64,000 nucleotides of DNA, taken from the NCBI GenBank assembly GCA_021793515.1, contig JAJYSP010000005.1, positions 1 through 64,000 on the forward strand, given 5' to 3'. The stretch is from Actinomycetes bacterium (GTDB lineage Bacteria > Actinomycetota > Acidimicrobiia > Acidimicrobiales > RAAP-2). Positions within the stretch are counted from its first letter, which is position 1. Each line of letters opens with the position of its first letter. This document shows positions 2-55,112 of this stretch, piece by piece. Below the pieces are notes generated by a model. That model had not been told where the DNA came from and made no database searches. It was given only the letters and a program-made list of their open reading frames with translations. The translations under genes and the position numbers were made by a program.

Positions 2-769
2 ATCCTCACCTTCCCGGCCAACCCGGCCGAGTGCTTCGAGTTCGCCGTCACGTCCTTTGACCTGGCCGAGCGCTTCCAGACGCCGGTCTTCATGCTGACC
101 GACCTCGACATCGGCATGAACGACTGGGTCGTGCCCAAGCTCACCTGGGACGACTCGTTCGTCCCTGACCGCGGTCGCGTCCTCAACGACGAGGACCTGG
201 CGGGGATGAAGGAGTTCTTCCGCTACGCCAACGCCGACGCCGAGCACGTGGCCGCGCGCACCGTGCCGGGCTCGGACTCCAAGGGCGCGTACTTCATCCG
301 AGGATCCGGCCACGACATGTTCGGCCGCTACACCGAGGACCCGGCGGAGTACCAGGAGGTCGTCGACCGGCTGAAGCTCAAGCACGCCGCCGCGGCCACC
401 CACGTCCCGGCCCCGATTGTGATCACGAAGCCCAACGCCTCGATCGGCATCATCACGCTCGGCAGCTGTGACCTCGCGGTGCGCGAGGCCATCGACGAGC
501 TCGCCGAACGCGGGCTGCCCGCCGACTACATGCGCGTGCGCGGGTTCCCGTTCGTCGCTGACGTGCGGGCCTTCGTCGAAAGCCACGAGCACTGCTTCGT
601 CGTCGAACAGAACCGCGACGGCCAGCTGCGCTCGCTCATCAGCGTCGAAACCGGCGTTGCGATCGAGTCGATGCACTCGATCCTCGCCTACGGCGGCTTC
701 CCGCTCAGCGCGGCCCAGGTCGTCGACGGCGTCGTCGGACACGGCATCATCGAACAGTTGGAGGACTGA
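2..769 (+). CDS. korA: 2-oxoacid:ferredoxin oxidoreductase alpha subunit (5' truncated by window edge)
   Basis: Open from the left edge (frame 2) to a TGA at 767-769, giving the last 255 residues. The visible part begins inside the domain that precedes the conserved DLD-IGMNDW segment and continues through the C-terminal half typical of KorA-type subunits. This subunit pairs with the TPP-binding subunit encoded next to oxidise a 2-oxoacid (2-oxoglutarate most likely) to the acyl-CoA with ferredoxin as electron acceptor. The stop is 1 nt before the GTG of korB, so translation is probably coupled. The substrate cannot be fixed from sequence alone; the start lies outside the window. Confidence 0.88.
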   Translation: MLTFPANPAECFEFAVTSFDLAERFQTPVFMLTDLDIGMNDWVVPKLTWDDSFVPDRGRVLNDEDLAGMKEFFRYANADAEHVAARTVPGSDSKGAYFIRGSGHDMFGRYTEDPAEYQEVVDRLKLKHAAAATHVPAPIVITKPNASIGIITLGSCDLAVREAIDELAERGLPADYMRVRGFPFVADVRAFVESHEHCFVVEQNRDGQLRSLISVETGVAIESMHSILAYGGFPLSAAQVVDGVVGHGIIEQLED

Positions 770-770
770 C

Positions 771-1826
771 GTGCCATCGATCACCAAACCACTGATCCCG
801 CTCGCCCCGCTCGCGAAGAACGAGCTCGGCCTGACGATCCGCGACTACGAGGGCGCGATGTCCACGCTCTGCGCGGGCTGCGGCCACGACTCGATCACCG
901 CGGCGATCACCCACACCTTCTGGGAACTGTCGACGCCACCGCACATGATCGCCAAGCTGAGCGGCATCGGCTGCTCGAGCAAGACCCCGACCTACTTCGT
1001 GCGCGGCGCCCACGGCTTCAACTCGGCCCACGGGCGCATGGCGACGATCGCCACCGGCGCGGCCGCGGCGAACCGCGAGTTGACCTACATCGGTGTCTCG
1101 GGTGACGGCGACTCGCTGTCGATCGGTATCGGCCACCTCGCCCACGCGATCCGTCGCAACGTGAACATGGTCTACGTCATCGAGAACAACGGCGTCTACG
1201 GACTCACCAAGGGTCAGCTCTCGGCCTCGGCCGACATCGGCACGCGCCCGAAGAAGGGTGACGCCAACGTCGTGGCCCCGATCGACCCGATCATGCTCGG
1301 ACTCGCGATGGGCGCGACGTTCCTCGCGCGCAGCTTCTCGGGTGACAAGGAGCAGCTGATCCCGATCCTGAAGGCGGCGGTCGCCCACAACGGCCTCGCG
1401 CTGATCGACGTGATCAGCCCGTGCGTGACCTTCAACGACCACGAGGGCTCAACCAAGAGCTACCGCTTCATGCGTGAGCACGAGGTGAAGGAGGTCCTCA
1501 CCGACTTCGTGCCCGAGCGCGAGGAGATCGCCGTCGCCATCGGCGGCCACGACACGCGCTCGGTCACGATGCACGACGGCAGCGTCATCACGTTCCGCTC
1601 GGTGCCCGAGGGCTACGACCCGACGAACCGGATCTCGGTCGAGGAGTACATCCGCGACCACCAGCGCCTCGGCGAGGTCGTCACCGGACTGCTGTACCTC
1701 GACGAGAGCGCCCCGAGCATGCACGAGATCAACCACACGCCCGTCGAGGGTCTCAACAAGCTCCCCTTCGAGGCGCTCTGTCCCGGCAGCGCAGTCTTGG
1801 AAGACCTGATGGCGGACTTCCGCTAA
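771..1826 (+). CDS. korB: 2-oxoacid:ferredoxin oxidoreductase beta subunit
   Basis: 351 aa. GTG start chosen because it follows the korA stop by 1 nt and begins the conserved N-terminus. Near residues 35-40 it has CAGCGHD, a typical Fe-S/TPP-proximal motif of these beta subunits. The TPP-Mg motif GDGD...ENNGVYGLTKGQ lies around residues 105-145. With korA it forms a CoA-dependent 2-oxoacid (probably 2-oxoglutarate) ferredoxin oxidoreductase, a TCA-cycle step alternative to the dehydrogenase complex. An aconitase gene lies 40 kb away. Followed by a strong hairpin terminator. Confidence 0.9.
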   Translation: MPSITKPLIPLAPLAKNELGLTIRDYEGAMSTLCAGCGHDSITAAITHTFWELSTPPHMIAKLSGIGCSSKTPTYFVRGAHGFNSAHGRMATIATGAAAANRELTYIGVSGDGDSLSIGIGHLAHAIRRNVNMVYVIENNGVYGLTKGQLSASADIGTRPKKGDANVVAPIDPIMLGLAMGATFLARSFSGDKEQLIPILKAAVAHNGLALIDVISPCVTFNDHEGSTKSYRFMREHEVKEVLTDFVPEREEIAVAIGGHDTRSVTMHDGSVITFRSVPEGYDPTNRISVEEYIRDHQRLGEVVTGLLYLDESAPSMHEINHTPVEGLNKLPFEALCPGSAVLEDLMADFR

Positions 1827-1843
1827 CCAGGCACGAAACGCAC

Positions 1844-1880
1844 CGACGACGCCCGGTCCCTTGTGGACCGGGCGTCGTCG
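1844..1880. terminator. Perfect 16-bp hairpin between korB and cobB
   Basis: Left arm CGACGACGCCCGGTCC (1844-1859), 5-nt loop, and exact complement at 1865-1880. It sits 17 nt after the korB stop and 15 nt beyond the cobB stop on the other strand, so it can serve both convergent genes. There is no clear T-run, as is common in high-GC actinobacteria. Confidence 0.8.
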
Positions 1881-1895
1881 ACTCCCGATTCTTCG

Positions 1896-3275
1896 CTACC
1901 CGTGTCCTGACTCGTGCCCGCCGTGCGCGCTGGCCGCGGCGACGAAGCGTTGCGCCAGTTCGGGCGTCGCGGCTAGGTGCTGGTGGAGATAGCTCGCAAA
2001 GAGCGTTGGCGTGTTCACCCCGCCCGGTGCGGTCCCGAAGCGACCGGCGAGGTCCATCCCCTCGCCCGCCGGCGTCACGGTTGAGCGGTGGAACTCGTGC
2101 CCGCGCAGTGCCGTGCCCGCCGGGCCGAAGATCCCTGGGCCCCTCGTGGTCGCGCGTCGGTAGCCGAGAGTCAAGCGTTCGGTCATCGTCGCGTGGGTCC
2201 CCACGAGCACACCCGCCATCGGCGTCTCGTCGAGCGACTCACAGAGCCACAGGTAGCCCCCGCACTCCGCCCAGGTGACAAGTCCCGCGCCGACCCGCGC
2301 GCGCACGTCGCCGAGGAGCCGCTCGTTCTGGGCCAACGCGCTCGCGTAGACCTCGGGGAACCCACCGCCGGCGTAGAGCGCGGCGCAGTCGGCCGGCAGC
2401 GCCTCGTCAAGAAGGGGGTCGACCTCGACGAGCTCGGCGCCGGCCTCGGCGAGCAGGGCAAGGTTCTCGGGGTAGACGAAGCTGAAGGCCTTGCCCACGC
2501 AGAGTGCGACGCGCGCGTGAGCGACGAACGCCGCGTGGGGGACGTCGTCCACCTCGTGGGTCGGTGCGCCGGTGGCGATGGCGACGAGCGCCGCGAGGTC
2601 GACGTCGCGTGCGATGACCGCGCCGAGTCGCGCGACCGAGTCGCGCGTCTTCTCGGGGGTCTCGACCACGGGCACGAGCCCGAGGTGGCGTTCGCGCCAC
2701 GTGAGGGCGTCGTCGTGTCCGAGCACGCCGAGCACCGCCACCCCGAGCGGCGCGAGCGCCTCACGGAGCAACGTCGCGTGCCCCTCGCTGGCGACCCGGT
2801 TAAGGATCACGCCCGCGACGTTGACCGAGGGATCAAAGCGCGTAAAGCCGTGCACGAGCGCCGCGACCGAGCCGCTCATCGCCGAGGCGTCCACGACGAG
2901 CACCACCGGAGCATCGAGCAGCCGGCTGACCGCCGCGGTCGAACCATCGACGCCGGTCTCGCCCGCGCCGTCGAAGAGCCCCATGACACCCTCGACGACG
3001 AGCACGTCCGCGCCGCGCGACGCGCGCGCCGCCTGTCGGCGCACCACGTCCTCACCCGCGAGGAAGACGTCGAGCGAGCGGCCGGGCCGACCCGTCGCGA
3101 CGGCGTGATAACTCGGATCGATGAAGTCGGGGCCGACCTTGGCCGAGGCGACGCGAAGCCCCGAGGCGACGAGGGCCGCCATCACGCCCGTGGCGACGGT
3201 GGTCTTACCGACGCCGGAGTGCGTGCCGGCGACGACGATCCGAGGTCCGAGGCGCGCGATGGGCCATGGTACCAG
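1896..3275 (-). CDS. cobB: Cobyrinate a,c-diamide synthase
   Basis: ATP- and glutamine-dependent amidation of the a and c side chains of cobyrinate. The frame contains the N-terminal P-loop AGTHSGVGKT, and the C-terminal half is a class-I glutamine amidotransferase domain (WAECGGYLWLCES with the nucleophile Cys). The first ATG/GTG codons (3182-3185) lie downstream of the P-loop, so the true start must be upstream. The frame is open only to a stop at 3278-3276, and no ATG, GTG or TTG precedes the P-loop, leaving CTG at 3275 (used here, 459 aa) or a rarer codon. It is separated from the main cobalamin operon by a plus-strand DUF6027/FhuF pair that starts 37 nt away and diverges from it. Confidence 0.8.
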   Translation of the reverse strand: MVPWPIARLGPRIVVAGTHSGVGKTTVATGVMAALVASGLRVASAKVGPDFIDPSYHAVATGRPGRSLDVFLAGEDVVRRQAARASRGADVLVVEGVMGLFDGAGETGVDGSTAAVSRLLDAPVVLVVDASAMSGSVAALVHGFTRFDPSVNVAGVILNRVASEGHATLLREALAPLGVAVLGVLGHDDALTWRERHLGLVPVVETPEKTRDSVARLGAVIARDVDLAALVAIATGAPTHEVDDVPHAAFVAHARVALCVGKAFSFVYPENLALLAEAGAELVEVDPLLDEALPADCAALYAGGGFPEVYASALAQNERLLGDVRARVGAGLVTWAECGGYLWLCESLDETPMAGVLVGTHATMTERLTLGYRRATTRGPGIFGPAGTALRGHEFHRSTVTPAGEGMDLAGRFGTAPGGVNTPTLFASYLHQHLAATPELAQRFVAAASAHGGHESGHG

Positions 3276-3312
3276 TCACCGCCGTCGCCACCGGGCCGGT
3301 ACGCTCGTCCCG

Positions 3313-30690: not shown

Positions 30691-30727
30691 ATTCCCCCTC
30701 GACTCGAGTCGAGACTAACCGAGCAAC

Positions 30728-30906
30728 TAGTGGTCCGTCCTTGAATTGACGGAAGCGAGTTTCGATCGCCTGCGCTGAACCTACGCGACGATCTCGTCGG
30801 CCGACTTCTTCCAGATGAATGGTTGCGGATCGTCGTTCCAGCCGTCGGTCCAGATTCCAACCGTCTCTTCGAGTTGGTCCACTGAAGTGAACGTGCCCTT
30901 CTCCAG
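30728..30906 (-). repeat. Inverted partial copy of the IS630-type element (left boundary)
   Basis: Matches the 3' end of the right-hand element in inverted orientation. On the minus strand it still encodes the transposase C-terminal stretch WNDDPQPF.WKKSADEIVA followed by TAG. Unlike the right copy it has no premature stop at the position where that copy has AGC TAG (here ATC TGG). Ends abruptly at 30906, 24 nt before the carboxypeptidase stop. Confidence 0.85.
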
Positions 30907-34430: not shown

Positions 34431-35065
34431 TGGTCCGTCGGTTAGATAGTAGAAATGGTTAGAACATCGCGATGGCATCGAAACTCGCGACGCCATCCTT
34501 GCAAGTGACCACGGAGCAACAAGCAGTGCTGCAAGCGAAGGCGCTACTGACGTCAGCCAATGGCGAAGCCGTCTACGAAGTCGCTCGTCGCCTTGAAGTG
34601 GGTTCCAACTCGGTGCGACGGTGGCGACTGGTCAGGTGCTCTATGACGCCAAGAACCAACACTCGTCGAAAGAGGTCCTCACCTTCGTCCGGTTCATTGA
34701 CCCGCCCGTGGTAAAGGACCTGGAGATCCACGTCGTGCTCGACAATCTGTCGGCACACAAGGCCGAACCGGTCGTGACCTGGCTCGCGCATCCCAAGGGA
34801 GCGACGTGGCACGTGTACTTCCCCCCACCAGTTCATCGTGGCTCAACCTCGTGGAGAGTTGGTCCAGCCAACTCACCAACCGACGACTGAAGAAGGGCAC
34901 GTTCACTTCAGTGGACCAACTCGAAGAGACGGTTGGAAGCTAGACCGACGGCTGGAACGACGATCCGCAACCATTCATCTGGAAGAAGTCGGCCGACGAG
35001 ATCGTCGCGTAGGTTCAGCGCAGGCGATCGAAACTCGCTTCCGTCAATTCAAGGACGGACCACTA
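34428..35065 (+). mobile_element. Decayed IS630-type insertion sequence (right boundary)
   Basis: 638 bp between terminal repeats TAGTGGTCCGTC (34428-34439) and its complement at 35054-35065, both at TA. IS630 elements are usually about 1.1 kb, so roughly 40 percent is lost, mainly from the middle of the transposase. It supplied or shares the outer end found inverted at 30728. Confidence 0.82.
34472..35012 (+). pseudogene. IS630-family transposase remnant
   Basis: The N-terminal HTH part (34472 to about 34625: LQAKALLTSANGEAVYEVARRLEVGSNSVRRWR) runs into a deletion and frame change. The next piece is the DDE catalytic portion (about 34630-34835: LEIHVVLDNLSAHKAEPVVTWLAHPK), then another frame change to SSWLNLVESWSSQLTNRRLKKGTF, interrupted by TAG near 34942 before WNDDPQPFIWKKSADEIVA. 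At least one deletion, two frameshifts and one nonsense change; it cannot make active transposase. Confidence 0.85.
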
Positions 35066-36178
35066 GAACGCGCTGTGAACCGGGATGCGCACGCGCGAGT
35101 GGTCCGGGGCCGACCGAGGTCGGATTGCCACCGGGTGCGCCATGAGCGCCTGTTCGCCCAGACCGAAGACGCACTCGGGGTCCGGGTCGTCGAGTTCGAG
35201 CCCGGTGAAGAACTTCGCCGCGAGGCAGCCGCCGCGACAGGCGTCATAGGAACCACAGGCCGAGCACGCGCCCGCACTCCCGGGTTCGCGCAACTCGCCA
35301 AACAACTCGCTGTTGCGCCAGACCTCGGCGAAACCGCCGTCGCGGATCGTGCCCGCGCGAAAACGTTCGTGGATGACGAAGGGGCACGCGTAGACATCGC
35401 CGACGGGGTCAACGAGACAGACCACCCGCCCCGCTCCGCAGAGGTTGAGTCCGTCGAGCGGGGCGCCGAGGGGCGAGAGGTGGAAGAACGAGTCGCCCGT
35501 CAGCACGCGCGGGTGCCCGACCAGCCAGTGGTAGAGCATCTCGTTCTGGGCACGTGTGGGATGGAGGTCCGCCCACGAGTCGACCCCGCGCCCCGAGGGT
35601 CGCAGCCGGGTGAGTCGGAGTTGGGCACCGTAATGGGCCGCAATCGCGGCGAAGTCGTCGAGTTGGGTCACGTTCTCGCGCGTGACGACGACCGAGATCT
35701 TGAACTCGCCGAAGGCAGCGTCGGCGAGGTGCTCCATGGCGCGACGGGCCGCGGCGTAGCTGCCAGCCCCGCGCAGTCGGTCGTTGGTGGCCGCGTCCGC
35801 GCCGTCGAGGGACACCTGGACGTCGAGGTAGTCCATCGCCGCGAGTCGACGCGCCGCGCCGGCATCGATGCGTGTGCCGTTGGTCGAGAACTTGACGCCC
35901 ACCCCCTGGGCGACCGCGTAGCCGATCAGTTCGAAGAAGTCCCGTCGGATCATGGGTTCGCCCCCACCGACGTTGATGTAGAAGACCTGCATCGCGGCCA
36001 CCTCATCGATGAAGGTACGGGCCTCGTCGGTCGTGAGCTCGCGTGGATCGCGCCGACCCGAGGCTGAGAGACAGTGTGAGCACGACATGTTGCAGGCGTA
36101 GGTGAGCTCCCAGGTGAGACAGATCGGCGCGTCAAGCCCGCGCTCGAATCGGCTGCGCAGCAACGAGTCAGCACCCAC
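35063..36178 (-). CDS. mftC: Mycofactocin radical SAM maturase
   Basis: 371 aa. Radical SAM cluster C29-x3-C33-x2-C36 (CNMSCSHC), GGGEP, and a SPASM domain with Cys-rich CGAGRVVCLVDPVGDVYACPF and CSACGSYDACRGGC for auxiliary 4Fe-4S clusters. It oxidatively decarboxylates and cyclises the C-terminal Val-Tyr of MftA. GTG at 36178 overlaps mftB by 11 nt. The TAG stop sits on the TA where the IS630-type insertion landed; the pre-insertion sequence also reads TAG, so the protein is not truncated. The tail is slightly shorter than in mycobacterial MftC, as I recall it. Confidence 0.95.
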   Translation of the reverse strand: MGADSLLRSRFERGLDAPICLTWELTYACNMSCSHCLSASGRRDPRELTTDEARTFIDEVAAMQVFYINVGGGEPMIRRDFFELIGYAVAQGVGVKFSTNGTRIDAGAARRLAAMDYLDVQVSLDGADAATNDRLRGAGSYAAARRAMEHLADAAFGEFKISVVVTRENVTQLDDFAAIAAHYGAQLRLTRLRPSGRGVDSWADLHPTRAQNEMLYHWLVGHPRVLTGDSFFHLSPLGAPLDGLNLCGAGRVVCLVDPVGDVYACPFVIHERFRAGTIRDGGFAEVWRNSELFGELREPGSAGACSACGSYDACRGGCLAAKFFTGLELDDPDPECVFGLGEQALMAHPVAIRPRSAPDHSRVRIPVHSAF

Positions 36179-44331: not shown

Positions 44332-44475
44332 CCGAAGCGTCACCGACGCCATAGGGCCCGAACTCGCACGCGCGAGTCCTCGCGGCTCGGCTGAAAATCA
44401 TCTCAGTCACCGGCGGCAACGACCGTTGCCACGCCGAGCCCGAAACGCAAGAATCGCCTCGATACGGGGAGGGCG

Positions 44476-47400
44476 ATGGGCACGATGGCGAGACCGCGTT
44501 GGCGTCGCGCGACCACCGTCACCCTCGCCGCAGCACTCGTCGCCACGTTGACGAGTGTCGGTGTGGTGATCGCACCGAGCGCGAGCGGCGCCGCGACGAC
44601 ACTCGAGGTCCTCAACCTTCACGGCACACCCCTGTCACGGGTAGAACTGCACGCCAGCGGCGTTGACGTGGTGCCCGTCGCGCTCATCGATCAATCGGCG
44701 AATACGGGACCGACGACTCTACGGCTGACGGTACCTCGTGGCTTTCGTGTCGCGGGACTGAGCAGCGTCGACGCGACGGGCGGGCGGCCAACGGGCGGCC
44801 ACTGGTCCTGCTCGACGCGACACGCGACGACGTCGTGTTCACTGCACCACGCCGTCTCCTCGTCGCCGACGATCATCGCCTACGTCGAACTCGTAAACCA
44901 TCGCTCCGTAGCCCAAGGGCCACGCACTGCGCTCTCGATACGCGGATCACTCGACGGCGCGCCAGCGAGTTCGCTCGACGTGCCGGTCTCGATCGGGCCG
45001 ACGAACCTCCCCTCGGTCTCACTCGATCGTTCGATGACGCCCGTCGTCTCTGGTAACGCCGCCGGGTCGGTCAGCTACGTCGTGCACGACAACGCCGGCG
45101 CACCCGTCGCCGCCGGGGCCGTCGCCGTCGACCACGCCCTCCCCCCATCGATCCGTTCGTGGCAGTCTCGTTCACCAGGCTGGCGATGCGCGGGCGCACC
45201 CACGTCGAGTCCGACCTGCACGTACGAGCACGGAATCAGCGTGAACGCAGCGGCCTCGCCGCTCACCTTGACCTACCGCGTGAACGGACCCGCGCTCCTG
45301 CGAGGTCACGACCGCGCGAGGGACGCCTGGTCGAGCTCGCTCGTCGTCACCGGACCCTACGGCGTTACCTTGCAGCGTGCGGTCCCTGGTGCGGTGGCCG
45401 TGACGTCGTCGGCGGTGGGTTCCTTACGCGTCCAAGTGGAGACCGTCGGGAGCCAGAGCGTTTCACGGGGCGAGACCTCGAATATCGCCATCATCCACCA
45501 AGCGAGCGACGGCGTGGCGAGCGGTCTCGCCGACACGATCATCGTGCCGACCGGCTTCACGATGCTCGCCGAGCACGTCGATGGCTGGAGCTGTCCGGGC
45601 GGCACGGGCAAGCTCACGTGCCAACACCCCGCACCCATCCTCACCAACGCACCGTTCGTACTGCGGGTCGCACTGCGCGCGAGAACGGATGCGCCAGTGG
45701 GCATGGCCATCGTCGCCGTCGTCTCAATCGCTCGTGACGCAAGTGTGAAGAACGCCGGTCTCGCGATCGTCAACGTCCTTGGTCACCCGGCACCCACCGC
45801 ACCGGCGGCGCCCGCAACACCGGTGCCGGCGGCACCGCCGCCACCTGGCTCACCGACGTCGCGAGCGTCATCGACGTCAACGCCGTCACCCGCGCAGCCG
45901 ACACACCCCACGACGCCCGCGCCCGTTCACACCGCGTCCGCATCGCGTGAGTCGAGCGCGAGGTCGTCCCACGCCGTGTCGGCGACGACCGTGCCGGTCG
46001 CCACGACGGCGACGCCCCACGTCACCTGTCCCGGCGCCTCGGTCACGCTCGGGCCATTCGCACTCACTTCAGCCACGTGGACCTCGAACTCGACGTTCTG
46101 CAGTGGCACGGCCACGATCGATCTCGGGTCGGGGTTGTCGCTCTTCTCGGGCGCATCGATCGCCGTCAACGTCACTTACAGCGACGCGGCGGACTGGACG
46201 GTCACCATTGCGGCGACCCAGACGGGTATCACGTTCTTTGGGATCACGCCATCCTTCACCGGCACGGTCACCGCCGTGAACGGGACGATCTCCGGTGCTC
46301 TCTCGATCGACCTCTCGCCCGTCTCGGCGATCGCGCTCGGTGGGGGCGTCACCCTTTCCGGCTCGATCACACTCAGCTCCAGTAGCGGCACGACCCCCAC
46401 GCTCAGCGCGAGCGCCGACCTCACCATCGGACTCGTCAACTCCAGCGTGGCGATCCCGGTCTCGCTCACCTACACCAACTCGTCCACCTGGAGCGTGACG
46501 GCCCAGAGCGGCACCATCGCCTTTGACGCCCCGGGCACGGTTGCGAACCCGTCCCCGACGCCGGTCACCATCGCCGTCAGTGGTACCGTGACCGACTCGA
46601 GCGGCGCGCTCGCCACCACGCTGACGGCTTCGACGGCCGCTCCGGTCACGATCGTGCCGGGCGTCACCTTCGAGGGATCGCTGAACCTGTCACTCGCGAC
46701 GGGCGCCGCCAGCGCGACCTTCACGGGGACGGCGACCTTGACCGTGGGGACCCTGAGTCTGCCGGTTAGTTTCACGTACACCGACCCTCGGAGCTGGTCG
46801 GCCAGTCTCTCGATGTCAAACTCGTCGGGTTCCATCGCGATCACACCGGACTTCTCAATCCCGCTGTCGAACCTCTCCGGCACCGTTGCCTACGGGTTCG
46901 CCAACGGCAGCGACTTCCCGAGCGTGCAGTGGAACGTCACCGCGTCGCTCTCGCCCGTCACGCTGATAGCGGGCGTTGCGCAACTGAGCTCACTCACCCT
47001 CACGATCGCCAACACCTGTCCGACGGCGAGCACCCTCCCCTGTCCGGCGGCGAACAACGACACCTACATCGCCCTGAGCGGGAACCTCGCGCTCACCTTC
47101 AGCCCCCTTTCGACCCAGGACCTCACCTTCAGCGCGTTCTACGACCTCACCACGAAGGCCTTCGACCTGGCGGCCTCGATGCCCGGTCCGATCACCGTCG
47201 TGTCGAACGTGCTCACCATCTCGAACCCCACCTTCGAGCTCGCCTACAACGACCCGACGTTCGCCAACCCCGGCAGTGCCGTCTCCCTCAACGGGCTGGG
47301 CACCGCGTCGGGATTCTCGCTCCTCGTGAGTGGGACCGTGAGCCTCACCTTCGCCGGTACCGCACTCACCACCACGGTGAGCCTGGTCTACGACACCAAC

Positions 47401-49425
47401 GGCCTGGCGGTCGTCGCGGACTTCACACCACCTTTCGAGCTCGGCTCGACCGGCGCCTCGATCAACACCATCGCCTACGTGACGACGTCGGCCACTCTGT
47501 CCCTCAATGGTGTCAGCGTCAATGTCCCGGCGAACACGTTCGTCCTCGGGGGATCGCTCAGTCTGCCGAGCTTCATCGCGACGTTCCTCGGCCAGACGTC
47601 ATCGATCTCGATCTACGTCACCTACACCTCGGCCAGTGACTTCTCGGTCAACGCCGTCTTCCCCATGAGTGTGCCCGTCAGTGCCTCCTCGGAGTTCTCC
47701 TTCACCTTCGGCGACCTCGCGCTCTCCGCGGGGATGTCGAATGGAACGGCGTTCATCACGCTCTCAGAGGCCGGGACCCTCACGATCAGTGGTGACGCCG
47801 CCGGCGACACCCCCCAGAGCGTTGCCGTAACCCTCGCGCTCAGCTACCAGCCGACAACGAGCACGCTGGTGTTCTCCATCGCCGGCAGTGGCGTCAACGG
47901 TGCGCCGGCGTGGCAGAACGCCTTCGGTTACCCCGGCCTTGACATCACGAACTTCGGCATCCAAGCCGGCGTCACCCTCGTCGCGCCGATCCCGTTACCG
48001 AGTTTCGGTCTCACGGCGTCGGGCTCACTGCCCGCGACCATCACGAGTGACCTCGGCATCGGCACCGGACAGGATGTCCCGCTCTCATTCACCATGAACA
48101 TCTCGGCGACCATCCCCTGTCTCGCGGTCGCCATCGGGAACCCCGCCCCCAACGCGCCGAGCGTGGTGGACATCGGAAACGGCGTGTTGACGGCGAGCTA
48201 CGCCACGTTCGTCGCGGCGCCCAGTGGCTGCTCCGTCGCTGGCACGACGATCAGTCCCGGGTTCGCCATCGGGTTCCACGGCTCATTCGTCGGCGTCGCG
48301 GTGACCTTCGACGCGGTCCTCACGGTCAACCCCTTCACGTTCACGGGATCGGCCACGGTCGAGGGCTTCAGCGCCGGCCCCTTCACACTCCAGAACGCCT
48401 CGGTCAGCGTCACGATCGGTTCATCCTTCTCACTCACCTTCTCGGGCGGGATACAGATCCTCGGCCCGAGTAACCAGGTCCAGGTGGAGGGTTCGATCAA
48501 CTCGAGTGGCGACATCAACCTCACGGGCACGGCGAACGTCACCCTCTCGGGCTTCAGTATGTCCATGTACGTCCACGCCGAAACCATCGACCTCAGTTTC
48601 TTCGGCTTTGGTCACTTCAAATACGTCGCGGTGACCGCGAATGCCTCACTAAACGTGCTCGGATCGACCGTCTCGATCTCGGGGTACTTCGGCCCGGCGA
48701 GCGGCGGCGGCGTCGAGGCCACACTCCAGGGCAACGCCTCGTTCAACCCCGGGGGCTACAACCTGGGCAACCTCAACTTCGCGCTCACCCTCAGCCCCCA
48801 GCAGCAGTCACTCACGGTGGGCGGCAACGTCGACCTCGGTGGCGTGTTCCAAGGGTCGATCAGTGGTGCGCTCAGTGCCGTCAACGGGTCGGTGGGCTTC
48901 AATCTCAGCGTCGCGGCCTCGTTCCAACTCGGCTCCCAGGTCGCGGTGAGCGGCACCCTCTCGATTGGCAACTGCTCGGGTGCGTGCACGACACTCACCA
49001 CCCTCGGGGCGTCGGTGAGCGGTAGTTTCACCTGGGCCGGGCGCACCTACTCGTTCGCCTCGGTCTCGGTCCCACCCTCGTGGAGCTTCGCGGTGAGCTC
49101 GAGCGGCTCAGTGAACGCCCAGTCGGGCGTCATCGACACCGGACTCATCCAGTACAGCGCCTCGTTCGTCGGCAACTACTACGTGTCGATCTCGAGCTCG
49201 TCGCCCTACCTCAGCGTACGCAGTGGCTTCAACGCCGAGGTCCAGAGCCGCGGGGGCACGCTGCAGACCCACTGTACGGGTGACTGGCGACCCTGGACGT
49301 GGCACTGCGACACCTACGTCGAGTGGGGTGGCTGGTACAACCTGGCCTCAGTGGGCGTCTCAATAGACACGGCCGGCCGATTCTCCGCGACGTACCTCGG
49401 CTCCACCTACCAGGTGAGCATCTGA
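44476..49425 (+). CDS. Giant secreted beta-rich protein
   Basis: 1649 aa. Signal peptide about residues 1-40 (TTVTLAAALVATLTSVGVVIAPSASGAAT). Residues 40-435 form Ig/DUF11-like units with spaced Cys pairs (WSCSTRHATTSCS, WRCAGAPTSSPTCTY, WSCPGGTGKLTCQ). A Pro/Thr/Ser linker spans about 435-515. The remaining 1100 residues are repetitive amphipathic beta strands rich in S, T, G, V, L, with almost no Lys or Arg until near the end, which has a Cys/Trp-rich tip (HCTGDWRPWTWHCDTYVEWGGWY). No LPXTG or C-terminal anchor helix. Probably a cell-surface or matrix protein. Stop overlaps the next ATG (TGATG). Confidence 0.8.
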   Translation: MGTMARPRWRRATTVTLAAALVATLTSVGVVIAPSASGAATTLEVLNLHGTPLSRVELHASGVDVVPVALIDQSANTGPTTLRLTVPRGFRVAGLSSVDATGGRPTGGHWSCSTRHATTSCSLHHAVSSSPTIIAYVELVNHRSVAQGPRTALSIRGSLDGAPASSLDVPVSIGPTNLPSVSLDRSMTPVVSGNAAGSVSYVVHDNAGAPVAAGAVAVDHALPPSIRSWQSRSPGWRCAGAPTSSPTCTYEHGISVNAAASPLTLTYRVNGPALLRGHDRARDAWSSSLVVTGPYGVTLQRAVPGAVAVTSSAVGSLRVQVETVGSQSVSRGETSNIAIIHQASDGVASGLADTIIVPTGFTMLAEHVDGWSCPGGTGKLTCQHPAPILTNAPFVLRVALRARTDAPVGMAIVAVVSIARDASVKNAGLAIVNVLGHPAPTAPAAPATPVPAAPPPPGSPTSRASSTSTPSPAQPTHPTTPAPVHTASASRESSARSSHAVSATTVPVATTATPHVTCPGASVTLGPFALTSATWTSNSTFCSGTATIDLGSGLSLFSGASIAVNVTYSDAADWTVTIAATQTGITFFGITPSFTGTVTAVNGTISGALSIDLSPVSAIALGGGVTLSGSITLSSSSGTTPTLSASADLTIGLVNSSVAIPVSLTYTNSSTWSVTAQSGTIAFDAPGTVANPSPTPVTIAVSGTVTDSSGALATTLTASTAAPVTIVPGVTFEGSLNLSLATGAASATFTGTATLTVGTLSLPVSFTYTDPRSWSASLSMSNSSGSIAITPDFSIPLSNLSGTVAYGFANGSDFPSVQWNVTASLSPVTLIAGVAQLSSLTLTIANTCPTASTLPCPAANNDTYIALSGNLALTFSPLSTQDLTFSAFYDLTTKAFDLAASMPGPITVVSNVLTISNPTFELAYNDPTFANPGSAVSLNGLGTASGFSLLVSGTVSLTFAGTALTTTVSLVYDTNGLAVVADFTPPFELGSTGASINTIAYVTTSATLSLNGVSVNVPANTFVLGGSLSLPSFIATFLGQTSSISIYVTYTSASDFSVNAVFPMSVPVSASSEFSFTFGDLALSAGMSNGTAFITLSEAGTLTISGDAAGDTPQSVAVTLALSYQPTTSTLVFSIAGSGVNGAPAWQNAFGYPGLDITNFGIQAGVTLVAPIPLPSFGLTASGSLPATITSDLGIGTGQDVPLSFTMNISATIPCLAVAIGNPAPNAPSVVDIGNGVLTASYATFVAAPSGCSVAGTTISPGFAIGFHGSFVGVAVTFDAVLTVNPFTFTGSATVEGFSAGPFTLQNASVSVTIGSSFSLTFSGGIQILGPSNQVQVEGSINSSGDINLTGTANVTLSGFSMSMYVHAETIDLSFFGFGHFKYVAVTANASLNVLGSTVSISGYFGPASGGGVEATLQGNASFNPGGYNLGNLNFALTLSPQQQSLTVGGNVDLGGVFQGSISGALSAVNGSVGFNLSVAASFQLGSQVAVSGTLSIGNCSGACTTLTTLGASVSGSFTWAGRTYSFASVSVPPSWSFAVSSSGSVNAQSGVIDTGLIQYSASFVGNYYVSISSSSPYLSVRSGFNAEVQSRGGTLQTHCTGDWRPWTWHCDTYVEWGGWYNLASVGVSIDTAGRFSATYLGSTYQVSI

Positions 49426-50690
49426 TGGGTCGCCGTCTGGCCGGCGTCCTCGCGGGGCTCGCGCTCGCCACGGTCGCTACGCCCGCCGGCGCGGGCGCGG
49501 GCGCATCAGCATTGCACTTGACGGCCCGTAGAACCGGCACGACGGTGACCCTCACCTGGGACGCGGTGAACGGTCCGCTCCTCGGCTACGCCGTCGAACG
49601 CTCGACGACCGACCGCACGTTCGTGCCCGCGCGCAACGTCCTCACCACGCACACCACGTTCACGGGTCTGCGCGCGGGCGTCACCTACGACTTCGTCGTC
49701 GACGCGATCGGCCGTGGCGCGAGCACCAACACCATCCGCGTCATCGCCACCTCCAACGACGTCTCAGTGACTCCCGTCGGTGCCCCGAGTCCGCCGACAT
49801 CGGTGACGGCGAGTGCGCGCACGAGCGCAGTCCTCGTCTCTTTCCGCGCGCCACGCTCTAACGGCGGGTTCCCCGTGCTCGCCTACCGGGCCGTCGCATC
49901 GCCGTCGGGACGGTCCTGTCGACTGGTCTCGACCCCGACGGACCTCGGCGCCGATCCCACCGGTCCGCTGCTCTCGTGCCTGCTCACGGGGCTTCGCAAC
50001 GGTGTGCGCTACCGCGTTCGCGTCACCGACACGACGCGCGACGCCACGAGCCGACCGTCGCCGTGGTCCAATGTCGCCGTCCCCGGTCAGCGCCCGAGCC
50101 CGCCCGGTACCGTCGTCGCCGTGCCGCTCGAGCAGTCGGCGAGTGTCACCTGGCGCCCCGCCTTCGGCGGCGGCTCGCCCATCACGGGCTACGTCGCGAC
50201 CGCTGAACCTGGCGGCGCTACCTGTGCGACACACGCCAGTCGTCAGCCAGCCGGCCTCACCTGTGTCATCAGCGGACTGACTGACGCACTCACCTACACC
50301 GTCACCGTCGTCGCAACCAACGCCTTGGGCGCCTCCGCGCCGTCCAGTGCCGTCACCGTCGTGCCCGGCCCGGTGAACACCGTCGCCATCGGACCGTTCC
50401 CGAACGGCTCCGCGGTGCTCGACGGTGCGCTGGCGTCGTCGGTCACCGACCTCGCCCAGGGGATCGTGCTCAGTGGCGCCACCTACGTCGCGCTACAGGG
50501 CTACGCCGCCGACGTGAGCGGCGCCGCGGGGACGACCCTCGCCACCGAGCGGACCCGAGCCGTTGCCGCGGCGTTGGAGCTCGCGCTCGCGAGCGACGGT
50601 GCGACGGGTGTCACCGTCGCGGTCCAAACGTCGAGTGGTGCCCCGAGTGACCCCGCCGACGCCACGAGTGTGGTCGTGACCTCGAGCTAG
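49425..50690 (+). CDS. Secreted fibronectin type III protein with OmpA-like C-terminus
   Basis: 421 aa. Signal peptide LAGVLAGLALATVATPAGAGAGA. Three FN3 modules at about 28-120, 123-220 and 225-320 (PSPPTSVTASARTSAVLVSFRAP; GSPITGYVATAEPGG...TCVISGLTDALTYTVTVVATNALG). The last 90 residues (VALQGYAADVSG...TLATERTRAVAAALELAL) resemble the peptidoglycan-associating OmpA/MotB fold. Translationally coupled to the giant secreted protein, which it may tether; the tethering idea is inference. Confidence 0.75.
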   Translation: MGRRLAGVLAGLALATVATPAGAGAGASALHLTARRTGTTVTLTWDAVNGPLLGYAVERSTTDRTFVPARNVLTTHTTFTGLRAGVTYDFVVDAIGRGASTNTIRVIATSNDVSVTPVGAPSPPTSVTASARTSAVLVSFRAPRSNGGFPVLAYRAVASPSGRSCRLVSTPTDLGADPTGPLLSCLLTGLRNGVRYRVRVTDTTRDATSRPSPWSNVAVPGQRPSPPGTVVAVPLEQSASVTWRPAFGGGSPITGYVATAEPGGATCATHASRQPAGLTCVISGLTDALTYTVTVVATNALGASAPSSAVTVVPGPVNTVAIGPFPNGSAVLDGALASSVTDLAQGIVLSGATYVALQGYAADVSGAAGTTLATERTRAVAAALELALASDGATGVTVAVQTSSGAPSDPADATSVVVTSS

Positions 50691-53576: not shown

Positions 53577-55112
53577 TCAGTCGTTGGGCGCGATGTTCAC
53601 AAACGTGAGCACAGTGCCCACCATGGTTGCGGTCACAGTCACGGGCGTAGTGTCAACTATTCCTGCCGGCAGGATGAAACCGGACGCCACCGTGAACGTC
53701 ATTTGGGCTGCCTGGTCGTTGGGCTGGATCGTGAGGACTTCGCCGACCAAACTGACGAACGTGCCGTCGACGTGCACCACACTGGACTGGCCACCCTGGC
53801 CACCCTGACCACCCTGGTCACCCTCGGGCTGCTGGACTCGGACGCTCTGCAGCGTCAGCGCGTTGTTGTTCGTGGCGTCAAAGAAGCCGACCGCGTGGAC
53901 GCGGGCGCCAACGGCGATGCTCGACACATCAGCCGTAAGGGAAGAAGGCACCACGAAGGTCACGGGCGCCGCGCCGTCACCGGGCTGGACCGTCAGCGTG
54001 GCCGAGGTTGTAGTTGGGATCACCGTGACGAGACCTTCGGTCTGGGTCGTCATCGAGCCGTTGCCTTCGCCCTCGATCTGCTGCAGGCGAATCGAGACCG
54101 CGGTCAGCGTGGTACCCGACAACGTCCCAGTGACGTGGACGCGCGATCCGACCTGGAGGCCGACCGGCACGGTCACGGTGGAGGGCACCGAGAAGGTCAT
54201 GGCAGCGGCACCGTCACCGGGCTGCACCGTCAGGCTTGCCGGACTGGTCGCTGTGCTGTACCCCGTGACGAGACCCTCGCCCTGGATGTAGCCCGCGCCG
54301 TTCTGGTCCATCGACACACCGTCGGTCGACTGGGTCGCCGCGATGCTGTCGTCGGTGATCGTGACGAGCGTGAAGACGTTGTTCGCCCAGGACGTAAGCA
54401 ACTCAACTTGGTCGCCCACGTTGATCGTCGGTGGGAGCGTGATTGACGAAGGGATCGTCACCGCGGTGTTAGCGCCATCCTCGACGGCGATAGTGAGCGT
54501 TGTAGGTGACGCGCTCGACGGCAGGGTGAGCAGCGTGCCCTCAAGACCGATGAAGCCGCTCAAGCCCGTCTCGGTGACTGAAGTCGCGTCGAGGCTCGTC
54601 GGGCGAATGATCACGCCGACGCGCACGTCAGTGCCAACGCCCAGCGATGAACCCGACGCGTGGCTGTGTCGGCCGGCCTTGGCCGCCGTGACAACCGCAC
54701 TGGCGTGGTCGACGGCGACCGTGCTCGCACCGGTCGAGAGCACCAGGTTGGATGCGACGTCGCTCACGACGGTGCCGTGGATCATCGCGCGATCGACGCG
54801 GCCCCGAGCGTGACTGGCGAGCGCCTTGAACGTGCCGTCGGCGAGACGCGAAGCGCGCACCGTCAGCCGAGTGCCCAAGGCGACCTTCGCGACGGCGCCC
54901 GCCGACGCGAAGCGCACGGTGTCCATCGCGTTGCCCGCGGCGATCACCAGTGTGTGCCGGGCGGTGTTGGTCGCGACGACGGTTCCCTGCACGGTGGTCG
55001 CGTTAGTTGCTTTACTGGCGCTCGCGGCGAGCGGCGCCAGGGGGATCGTCAGTGCGAGAGCGGCCGCCAGGCTCGCCGCTCGGGCCACTGGCTTGTGGTA
55101 CTTGGTTGCCAT
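53577..55112 (-). CDS. Secreted protein with DUF5666-like beta repeats
   Basis: 511 aa. Signal peptide AASLAAALALTIPLAPLAASASKA. Two to three clear repeats of about 65 residues in the C-terminal half share G.V......A.LTVQPGDGAA.[MV]TF.VPS.........VG.RVH..G...... (starting about residues 285, 360, and a diverged copy near 445). A GGQGGQGGQ spacer precedes the last repeat. ATG with GGAGAA upstream. Probably a cell-wall-associated protein of unknown function. Confidence 0.72.
   Translation of the reverse strand: MATKYHKPVARAASLAAALALTIPLAPLAASASKATNATTVQGTVVATNTARHTLVIAAGNAMDTVRFASAGAVAKVALGTRLTVRASRLADGTFKALASHARGRVDRAMIHGTVVSDVASNLVLSTGASTVAVDHASAVVTAAKAGRHSHASGSSLGVGTDVRVGVIIRPTSLDATSVTETGLSGFIGLEGTLLTLPSSASPTTLTIAVEDGANTAVTIPSSITLPPTINVGDQVELLTSWANNVFTLVTITDDSIAATQSTDGVSMDQNGAGYIQGEGLVTGYSTATSPASLTVQPGDGAAAMTFSVPSTVTVPVGLQVGSRVHVTGTLSGTTLTAVSIRLQQIEGEGNGSMTTQTEGLVTVIPTTTSATLTVQPGDGAAPVTFVVPSSLTADVSSIAVGARVHAVGFFDATNNNALTLQSVRVQQPEGDQGGQGGQGGQSSVVHVDGTFVSLVGEVLTIQPNDQAAQMTFTVASGFILPAGIVDTTPVTVTATMVGTVLTFVNIAPND

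Follow-up and report, generated by a model that had tools for sequence, protein, structure and literature searches.

A giant exported protein with a charge-poor core

What is a bacterium doing with an exported protein of 1649 residues that is mostly devoid of positive charge, and why should its gene share a base with the next one? The question is raised by positions 44476-50690 (+ strand) of a 64,000-nucleotide stretch from an Actinomycetes bacterium of the order Acidimicrobiales (contig JAJYSP010000005.1), the whole of which is called here the window. The interval holds two genes, P0001 (44476-49425, 1649 residues), an open reading frame (ORF) of 1649 codons without interruption, and P0002 (49425-50690, 421 residues). 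Our answer, which we hold tentatively and rate a little short of an even chance, is that the pair is accessory and co-translated and builds a fibre or coat on the cell surface.

An earlier note, made from the letters alone, had read a couple of Lys and one Arg over about 1000 residues of P0001. By count, residues 520-1540 (46033-49095; 1021 residues) hold 2 Lys, 2 Arg, 29 Asp and 9 Glu, so that the lysines were right and one arginine had been missed. The whole core (residues 516-1649; 46021-49422), which is predicted to consist of amphipathic beta-strands and is the module common to the family described below, has 0.18% Lys and 0.53% Arg, an isoelectric point (pI) of 4.05 and a net charge of about +14 at pH 2.

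These values were compared with 167 putative genes (298,604 bases) of the same genome, called with a simple ORF rule and no gene finder. They came from 15 sources: 12 stretches taken blind, the window, and two loci chosen for their OmpA matches (L049 and L050). The median of Lys plus Arg in this sample was 9.1%, which confirms the poverty of the core. The whole of P0001, at 2.5%, was the second lowest, after an unrelated giant at 2.0% (C13:247-5622), and these two were the only ones of the 68 sampled proteins of at least 400 residues to contain a stretch of 400 residues free of Lys and Arg. The composition of the core is far outside the norm of its own genome, yet P0001 is not unique there. 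The other giant (L048:247-5622, - strand, in genome G000) is an exported-type protein of 1791 residues with tandem Ser/Thr-rich repeats of about 90 residues, and no Pfam family matched it with an E of 0.01 or less. When P0001 was left out, the pooled sample contained 1.50% Lys and 7.74% Arg, and the 23 secreted-like genes in it 1.50% Lys and 4.49% Arg.

The two basic residues do not behave alike along the pair. Arginine poverty is confined to the core: residues 38-515 of P0001 carry 27 Arg in 478 (5.6%; pI 9.3), and P0002 carries 27 in 421 (6.4%; pI 9.1). Lysine poverty extends over both proteins: residues 38-515 have only 2 Lys and P0002 has none, although about six would be expected there (P 0.0017 at the 1.5% of its own genome).

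Conservation of the junction and exchange of the partner

The coupling of the two genes through TGATG, claimed in the earlier note, can be read directly from the sequence (49412-49427): the stop codon of P0001 (49423-49425) and the ATG of P0002 (49425-49427) have one base in common within TGATG (49423-49427), and an AGGTGAG (49412-49418) ends six bases 5' of that ATG.

Relatives of the core are scattered. With the 270-residue piece 1180-1449 as the query, they were found in 15 of 100 genomes of the family (E up to 0.05) and in 14 of 248 genomes of the order (E up to 0.001), the source genome included both times, and in one of 26 other genomes of the same genus; the C-terminal 270 residues of the core matched none of 20 other genomes of that genus. 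The open frames of the relatives reach 4352 codons. L030 comes closest, with 58% identity over core positions 2-1134; the other long matches are 26-39% identical (BLAST), and the relative in genome G245 is a distant one, with 25.5% identity over part of the core.

To count junctions we took the 11 loci whose core reached 200 bits or more and whose downstream DNA was available (the window, L015-L022, L062 and L063). In eight of them, a gene for a secreted repeat protein follows so closely that its nearest start codon overlaps the stop codon of the giant by 1-8 bases or abuts it. The search for the pair in related genomes that had been proposed in the earlier note thus found the tight pairing kept in most of the strong-core loci. 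In five of these (the window, L015, L016, L017 and L018), the partner is of a fibronectin type III (FN3) class, mostly with a propeller at its start, and in three (L021, L062 and L063) it is a pentapeptide-repeat protein. As far as the sequences indicate, the junction is conserved in several relatives while the class of partner is exchanged. At a weaker locus, L029 (160 bits), an FN3/propeller gene adjoins the core gene in convergent orientation, and at L030, L061 and L068 the sequence ends too early for the partner to be judged. In addition, FN3 stretches are fused N-terminally to the core in one polypeptide at L017/L033 (eight stretches) and L062 (five stretches), which is separate evidence that both parts work together.

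The pair is probably accessory. A contig of a same-genus genome, G002, carries the end of acnA (95% over 39 residues), a relative of orf44002 (58%) and, 3 kb further, psiE (89%); between acnA and psiE it has, by eye, an aquaporin-like gene, a small gene and a gene for a transporter resembling the major facilitator superfamily in place of the pair. This status rests on G002, as the ten other psiE loci fetched share no other neighbours. An origin from a phage is unsupported: exact peptide patterns revealed no close relatives of P0001 in genome or viral contigs nor of P0002 in viral contigs, tblastn of P0001 against plasmids and phages gave none, and the core alignment had no match in viral contigs.

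Predicted fold of the core

No family could be assigned to P0001 in Pfam, NCBIfam or PHROG at E up to 1, and neither its sequence nor the core as a profile matched the PDB. When the cores of the relatives were scanned singly against family profiles, only scattered sub-threshold matches appeared, such as RSC4_Ig_like and RibLong in two relatives (E 0.11 each) and DUF748 in L019 (E 4e-4; 19 bits against a cut-off of 50), the only one of the 14 core loci scanned to show it. In L019 (2-4777 of that locus; G034:C19), a long helical-looking tail replaces the C-terminal domain, and this tail itself has sub-threshold matches to an apolipoprotein A-type family (E 0.14) and to baculovirus PEP_C (E 1.7e-4).

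The earlier note had spoken of endless amphipathic beta repeats and had suggested a structure prediction. AlphaFold2, given the full core together with six homologues (seven sequences), predicted 74 strands with a median length of 10 residues; of the 73 gaps that separate the strands, 44 are 2-4 residues long. The mean predicted local distance difference test score (pLDDT) was 61.5 and the predicted TM-score (pTM) 0.33. Residues 1195-1649 modelled alone reached a mean pLDDT of 68.5 and a pTM of 0.54; between about 1285 and 1454, blocks of ten residues scored 71-91. Along the predicted strands, hydropathy alternates more strongly than in shuffled sequence (1.35 against 0.64, z 11). In 60 predicted strands, large hydrophobic residues make up 64% of one face, and Ser, Thr, Asn and Gln make up 62% of the other, on which 6.5% are charged; the more hydropathic face was picked strand by strand, which somewhat exaggerates these percentages, and the shuffle test was equally free on both sides. 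The prediction is therefore of all-beta, amphipathic strands and not of disorder, and the amphipathic part of the claim is borne out by the model. The word endless is not: self-alignment (30 shuffles per segment) detects internal repeats at 501-850 and at 1401-1550, with z values of about 4-9, including units of about 100 residues at 573-805 (46192-46890), but between about 900 and 1400 z never exceeds 1.7 and no repeat is detectable. Neither disorder without repeats nor an unconserved pair, the two outcomes that the earlier note had named as fatal to it, was found.

Fold searches with the core models (Foldseek and VIA) returned outer-membrane barrels, LptD, ushers, S-layer porins, RHS proteins and apolipoprotein B-100 (ApoB-100); a search of a viral structure library with the core model gave nothing below E 0.013. 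Outer-membrane beta-barrels (LptD, ushers, TonB receptors) are the nearest shapes by both programs. They match the core with a root-mean-square deviation (rmsd) of mostly 14-46 Å at 4-13% sequence identity, and a closed barrel in the core would be conjecture. These matches suggest that the search responds to any long beta-meander. Read neutrally, the core would be a long open antiparallel sheet.

The partner protein and its OmpA-like tail

P0002 (49425-50690) starts with what by eye is a signal peptide and is thus of the exported type. Approximately residues 30-312 (49512-50360, outer limits approximate) form three FN3 domains that score well above the Pfam cut-off (fn3, PF00041; E 8.7e-28, 96.8 bits against a gathering score of 25, three stretches). 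P0002 resembles other FN3-repeat proteins in this respect, and differs from them in being tied by a stop-start overlap to a charge-poor giant and in its degenerate OmpA-like end.

That end had been proposed in the earlier note as a means of docking the complex to peptidoglycan. Residues 325-386 (50397-50582) match the OmpA family (PF00691) with 13.5 bits in the whole protein (E 0.095) and 16.9 bits when the tail is taken alone (E 0.0082), both below the cut-off of 27.2, and the match covers profile positions 2-66 of 98 and lacks the final third of the domain. The partner at L015, by comparison, ends in an OmpA domain above the Pfam cut-off (37.1 bits, E 4.3e-9). The tails of P0002, L018 and the L050 protein all align to that domain with an invariant Arg, and the tail of P0002 resembles that of L050 (E 7.8e-5). 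In OmpA-like domains, diaminopimelate is contacted by an Asp and an Arg, and an NRRxE motif is also present. NRRV is lost in the tails of P0002 and L018, and in P0002 the usual Asp position is shifted by one, with the Arg kept. By these alignments, the relation to OmpA domains stands and the tail appears to be degenerate, its binding to peptidoglycan being uncertain.

The L050 locus (13-3295; G000:C23) may hold a further surface pair of the same genome. It encodes a Ser/Thr-rich protein of 603 residues with a Pro-rich linker and an OmpA tail (20.1 bits, below the Pfam cut-off). Seven bases after it begins a propeller/PKD protein, of which at least 488 residues are encoded before the locus ends.

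Proposed function of the pair

As a secreted giant, a description from the earlier note that holds for its length and, by eye, for its export-type start, P0001 would leave the cell by Sec. Its putative signal peptide (about residues 1-38; 44476-44589) has by eye a basic start, a hydrophobic stretch and an Ala-rich end, and is preceded by a likely ribosome-binding site (GGGGAGGG, 44466-44473, from direct reading). The N-terminal part (residues 40-435; 44593-45780) is basic, with normal Arg and scarce Lys, and has no Pfam family; by eye, it consists of three units that align weakly with one another, each with a WxC...C pair (C112/C121, C238/C248 and C373/C382). It is followed by a linker rich in Pro, Ala, Ser and Thr by composition (residues 436-515; 45781-46020), a similar linker being visible in L030. 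The conserved alignment columns include the end of the core (about residues 1553-1649; 49132-49422), with C1600/C1611 and a Trp-rich segment.

From these parts we infer how the pair may work. The N-terminal units and the linker would span the wall or stay near it, and the core would project outward as a long antiparallel meander with, by prediction, one continuous hydrophobic face and one uncharged face of Ser, Thr, Asn and Gln. Copies of the core would most likely associate through their hydrophobic faces, giving a fibre, sheath or coat. Co-translation through the stop-start overlap could keep P0002 in ratio with P0001, the FN3 domains might hold or extend the giant, and the OmpA-related tail would once have anchored the complex to peptidoglycan and may still do so. 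The pairing conserved in relatives suggests that these are cell-surface building blocks from a family about which little is known.

Several points weigh against this proposal. No partner is adjacent at three of the 11 strong loci, namely L019, L020, where an FN3 gene lies 3.1 kb downstream, and L022, which has no comparable partner downstream and does align at the C-terminal end of the core; nor is there one at the more distant loci. At L019, an unrelated gene, rimO-like by eye, follows after 12 bases, so that close spacing is in itself weak evidence. By eye, the C-terminus of P0001 shows neither a sortase anchor nor a membrane anchor, and with NRRV and the usual Asp position lost from the tail of P0002, anchoring may be absent. 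The core models are of modest confidence and gave no specific fold match (best TM-score by query, TMq, 0.32 in any searched library; rmsd mostly in the range given above for the barrels). Five distant relatives keep more arginine in the core than the rest, as described below. Finally, the surface location and the fibres are things that we infer.

The strongest competing explanation of function and fold, though an unlikely one in our estimate, is that P0001 is an ordinary multidomain adhesin made of separate beta-sandwich or beta-solenoid repeats with no continuous sheet, whose richness in Ser, Thr and Gly would bring the low charge with it. Adhesins of giant size with repeats are common. The repeats at 573-805, the equally Lys- and Arg-poor Ser/Thr-rich giant of the same genome and the sub-threshold Ig-like matches in two relatives are all compatible with it. 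It is opposed by the lack of any above-threshold family in the core, by the absence of detectable repeats between about 900 and 1400, and by the prediction of an up-down meander for which outer-membrane barrels and ApoB, and not Ig domains, top the fold lists.

That the core instead acts on a lipid or another hydrophobic substance, as an open beta-belt like that of ApoB-100 or a groove of the AsmA/TamB type that coats a globule or mineral or carries lipid, we consider improbable. ApoB-100 is built with long antiparallel strands that have one hydrophobic face, as is the core model. A segment of it (9coo_A) aligns to the 1195-1649 model with Z 15.0 and an rmsd of 8.6 Å over 278 residues, far below the 14-26 Å of the other rows listed for that model, which are mostly outer-membrane barrels of similar Z, and ApoB is also among the best Foldseek matches of the full-core model. 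On the other hand, there is no sequence match to the core, the TM-scores of the ApoB chains are 0.12-0.28 when normalised by query length, the rmsd to 9coo_A rises to 16.9 Å with the full core, and the barrel matches raise the same doubt about the search as before. Large lipid-transfer proteins of the ApoB type have an N-terminal domain of the lipovitellin type, and P0001 gave no Pfam or PDB sequence match that would point to one. The likeness is an analogy, a lead and not a membership. As to the AsmA/TamB/YhdP beta-groove proteins, which have a U-shaped hydrophobic groove, the repeated amphipathic strands of the core are reminiscent of them, and the DUF748 match, a family that we take to be AsmA-like, occurs in the relative with the helical-looking tail. 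P0001 itself has no such match, and the one in L019 is far under the cut-off. Repeating beta-groove structures were absent from the 50 VIA rows listed per model, which excludes nothing. The bacterium is probably single-membraned, and there is no obvious second membrane for a secreted protein to serve.

Least probable of all, and decidedly speculative, is that the core represents a new bacterial fold class, a secreted and nearly uncharged amphipathic beta-belt of about 1000 residues that, like ApoB, wraps hydrophobic surfaces or stacks on them. Its docking partner, either FN3-OmpA or pentapeptide, would be exchangeable and, being co-translated, would be supplied at a fixed ratio to it. The likelihoods given here overlap with those of the next section: the adhesin and lipid explanations concern function and fold, and the export and acid explanations concern composition only.

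With a fibre or coat as the preferred function, the pair would be of wider interest on three counts. It belongs to an exported-type family of up to about 4,300 residues that lacks a model in the libraries searched and is scattered across one bacterial order. A stop-start junction kept in most of the strongest loci despite a change of partner class makes a good case for control of the ratio between a giant and its docking partner. The near-absence of Arg in most members also offers a natural test of whether Arg transit limits Sec export. Among the open-licence papers listed for giant or Lys/Arg-free surface proteins and for the envelopes of Acidimicrobiia, none was relevant.

Origin of the unusual composition

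The composition of the relatives was examined in 26 core loci, two from G034 and two from G076 included; matched genomes G026 and G274 and some second places within one genome lie outside this set, and for six of the cores the match spanned at most 405 residues. Arginine is at or below 1.1% in 21 of the 26, in which Lys ranges from 0.09 to 4.5%, and the five distant relatives (L064-L067 and L069) keep 2.1-5.3% Arg. Lysine is nearly absent (0.09-0.18%) from the cores of P0001, L030 and L020, the core of L030 having 0.09% Lys and 0.27% Arg. On this comparison, the loss of Arg, more than that of Lys, appears to be the common feature of the core family.

We propose that positive charge impedes two things, the Sec export of long hydrophobic strands and the close stacking of sheets, and that the core is poor in Lys and Arg for this reason. 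Among the causes we would rank export first and acid second, with stacking a possible third contributor.

That Sec export alone accounts for the composition, giant substrates with hydrophobic strands having lost Arg as the residue that translocates most slowly, is plausible to us but somewhat doubtful. PMC9110029 reports that the transport of Arg is rate-limiting for Sec, chiefly among bulky hydrophobic residues, and that Arg is under-represented in secreted proteins. The restriction of Arg loss to the hydrophobic-strand core fits such a limit, and so do the low Arg of most cores at widely varying Lys and the drop in Arg from 7.7% overall to 4.5% in the 23 secreted-like genes of the genome. 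An Arg-specific selection would not predict the near-absence of Lys from P0001, L030 and L020 or its complete absence from P0002, for which G+C content accounts only partly. The ordinary Arg of P0002 and of the N-terminal part of P0001, and the five relatives that retain Arg, also speak against export alone.

Adaptation to an acid habitat, in which few basic residues would avoid repulsion once Asp and Glu are protonated, seems to us improbable as the explanation. PMC6172347 describes a reduced content of Lys, Arg and His in acid-stable amylases; the same review also names a maltose-binding protein that is stable in acid and has a basic surface, an exception to the rule. Acid stability would account for the loss of both Lys and Arg in the core. 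The pI of the core and its charge at pH 2 would suit such a habitat, its closest relative L030 is equally poor in Lys and Arg, and a habitat effect could explain the scarcity of Lys along the whole pair. The low pH suggested in the earlier note is compatible with this last point, and is weakened by residues 38-515 and P0002, which would face the same medium and yet have ordinary Arg and a pI above 9. The distant G245 relative, putatively from the marine Ilumatobacter coccineum (strain YM16-304 is an isolate from marine beach sand, according to PMC3910706), has a core with 4.5% Arg and 12.7% Asp plus Glu. On this evidence the module as such does not depend on acidic conditions, which says nothing about acid as the cause in the branch of P0001 itself. 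A rusticyanin model had no match in the source genome; it matched only one of 14 control genomes and is uninformative on acidophily.

Other features of the window

Two further observations were made in the window. An exported-type protein of 511 residues (53577-55112, - strand) has a DUF5666-like segment below the cut-off (E 0.023) and 4.3% Lys plus Arg. Upstream of the pair, a 180-nucleotide inverted repeat (30727-30906 and 34887-35066; 98% complementary) encloses 3,980 nucleotides whose genes are, by eye, D,D-carboxypeptidase-like, L,D-transpeptidase-like and LysR-like. This segment, a candidate insertion or invertible segment, adjoins a radical SAM/SPASM gene and a dehydrogenase gene that by eye resemble those of mycofactocin.

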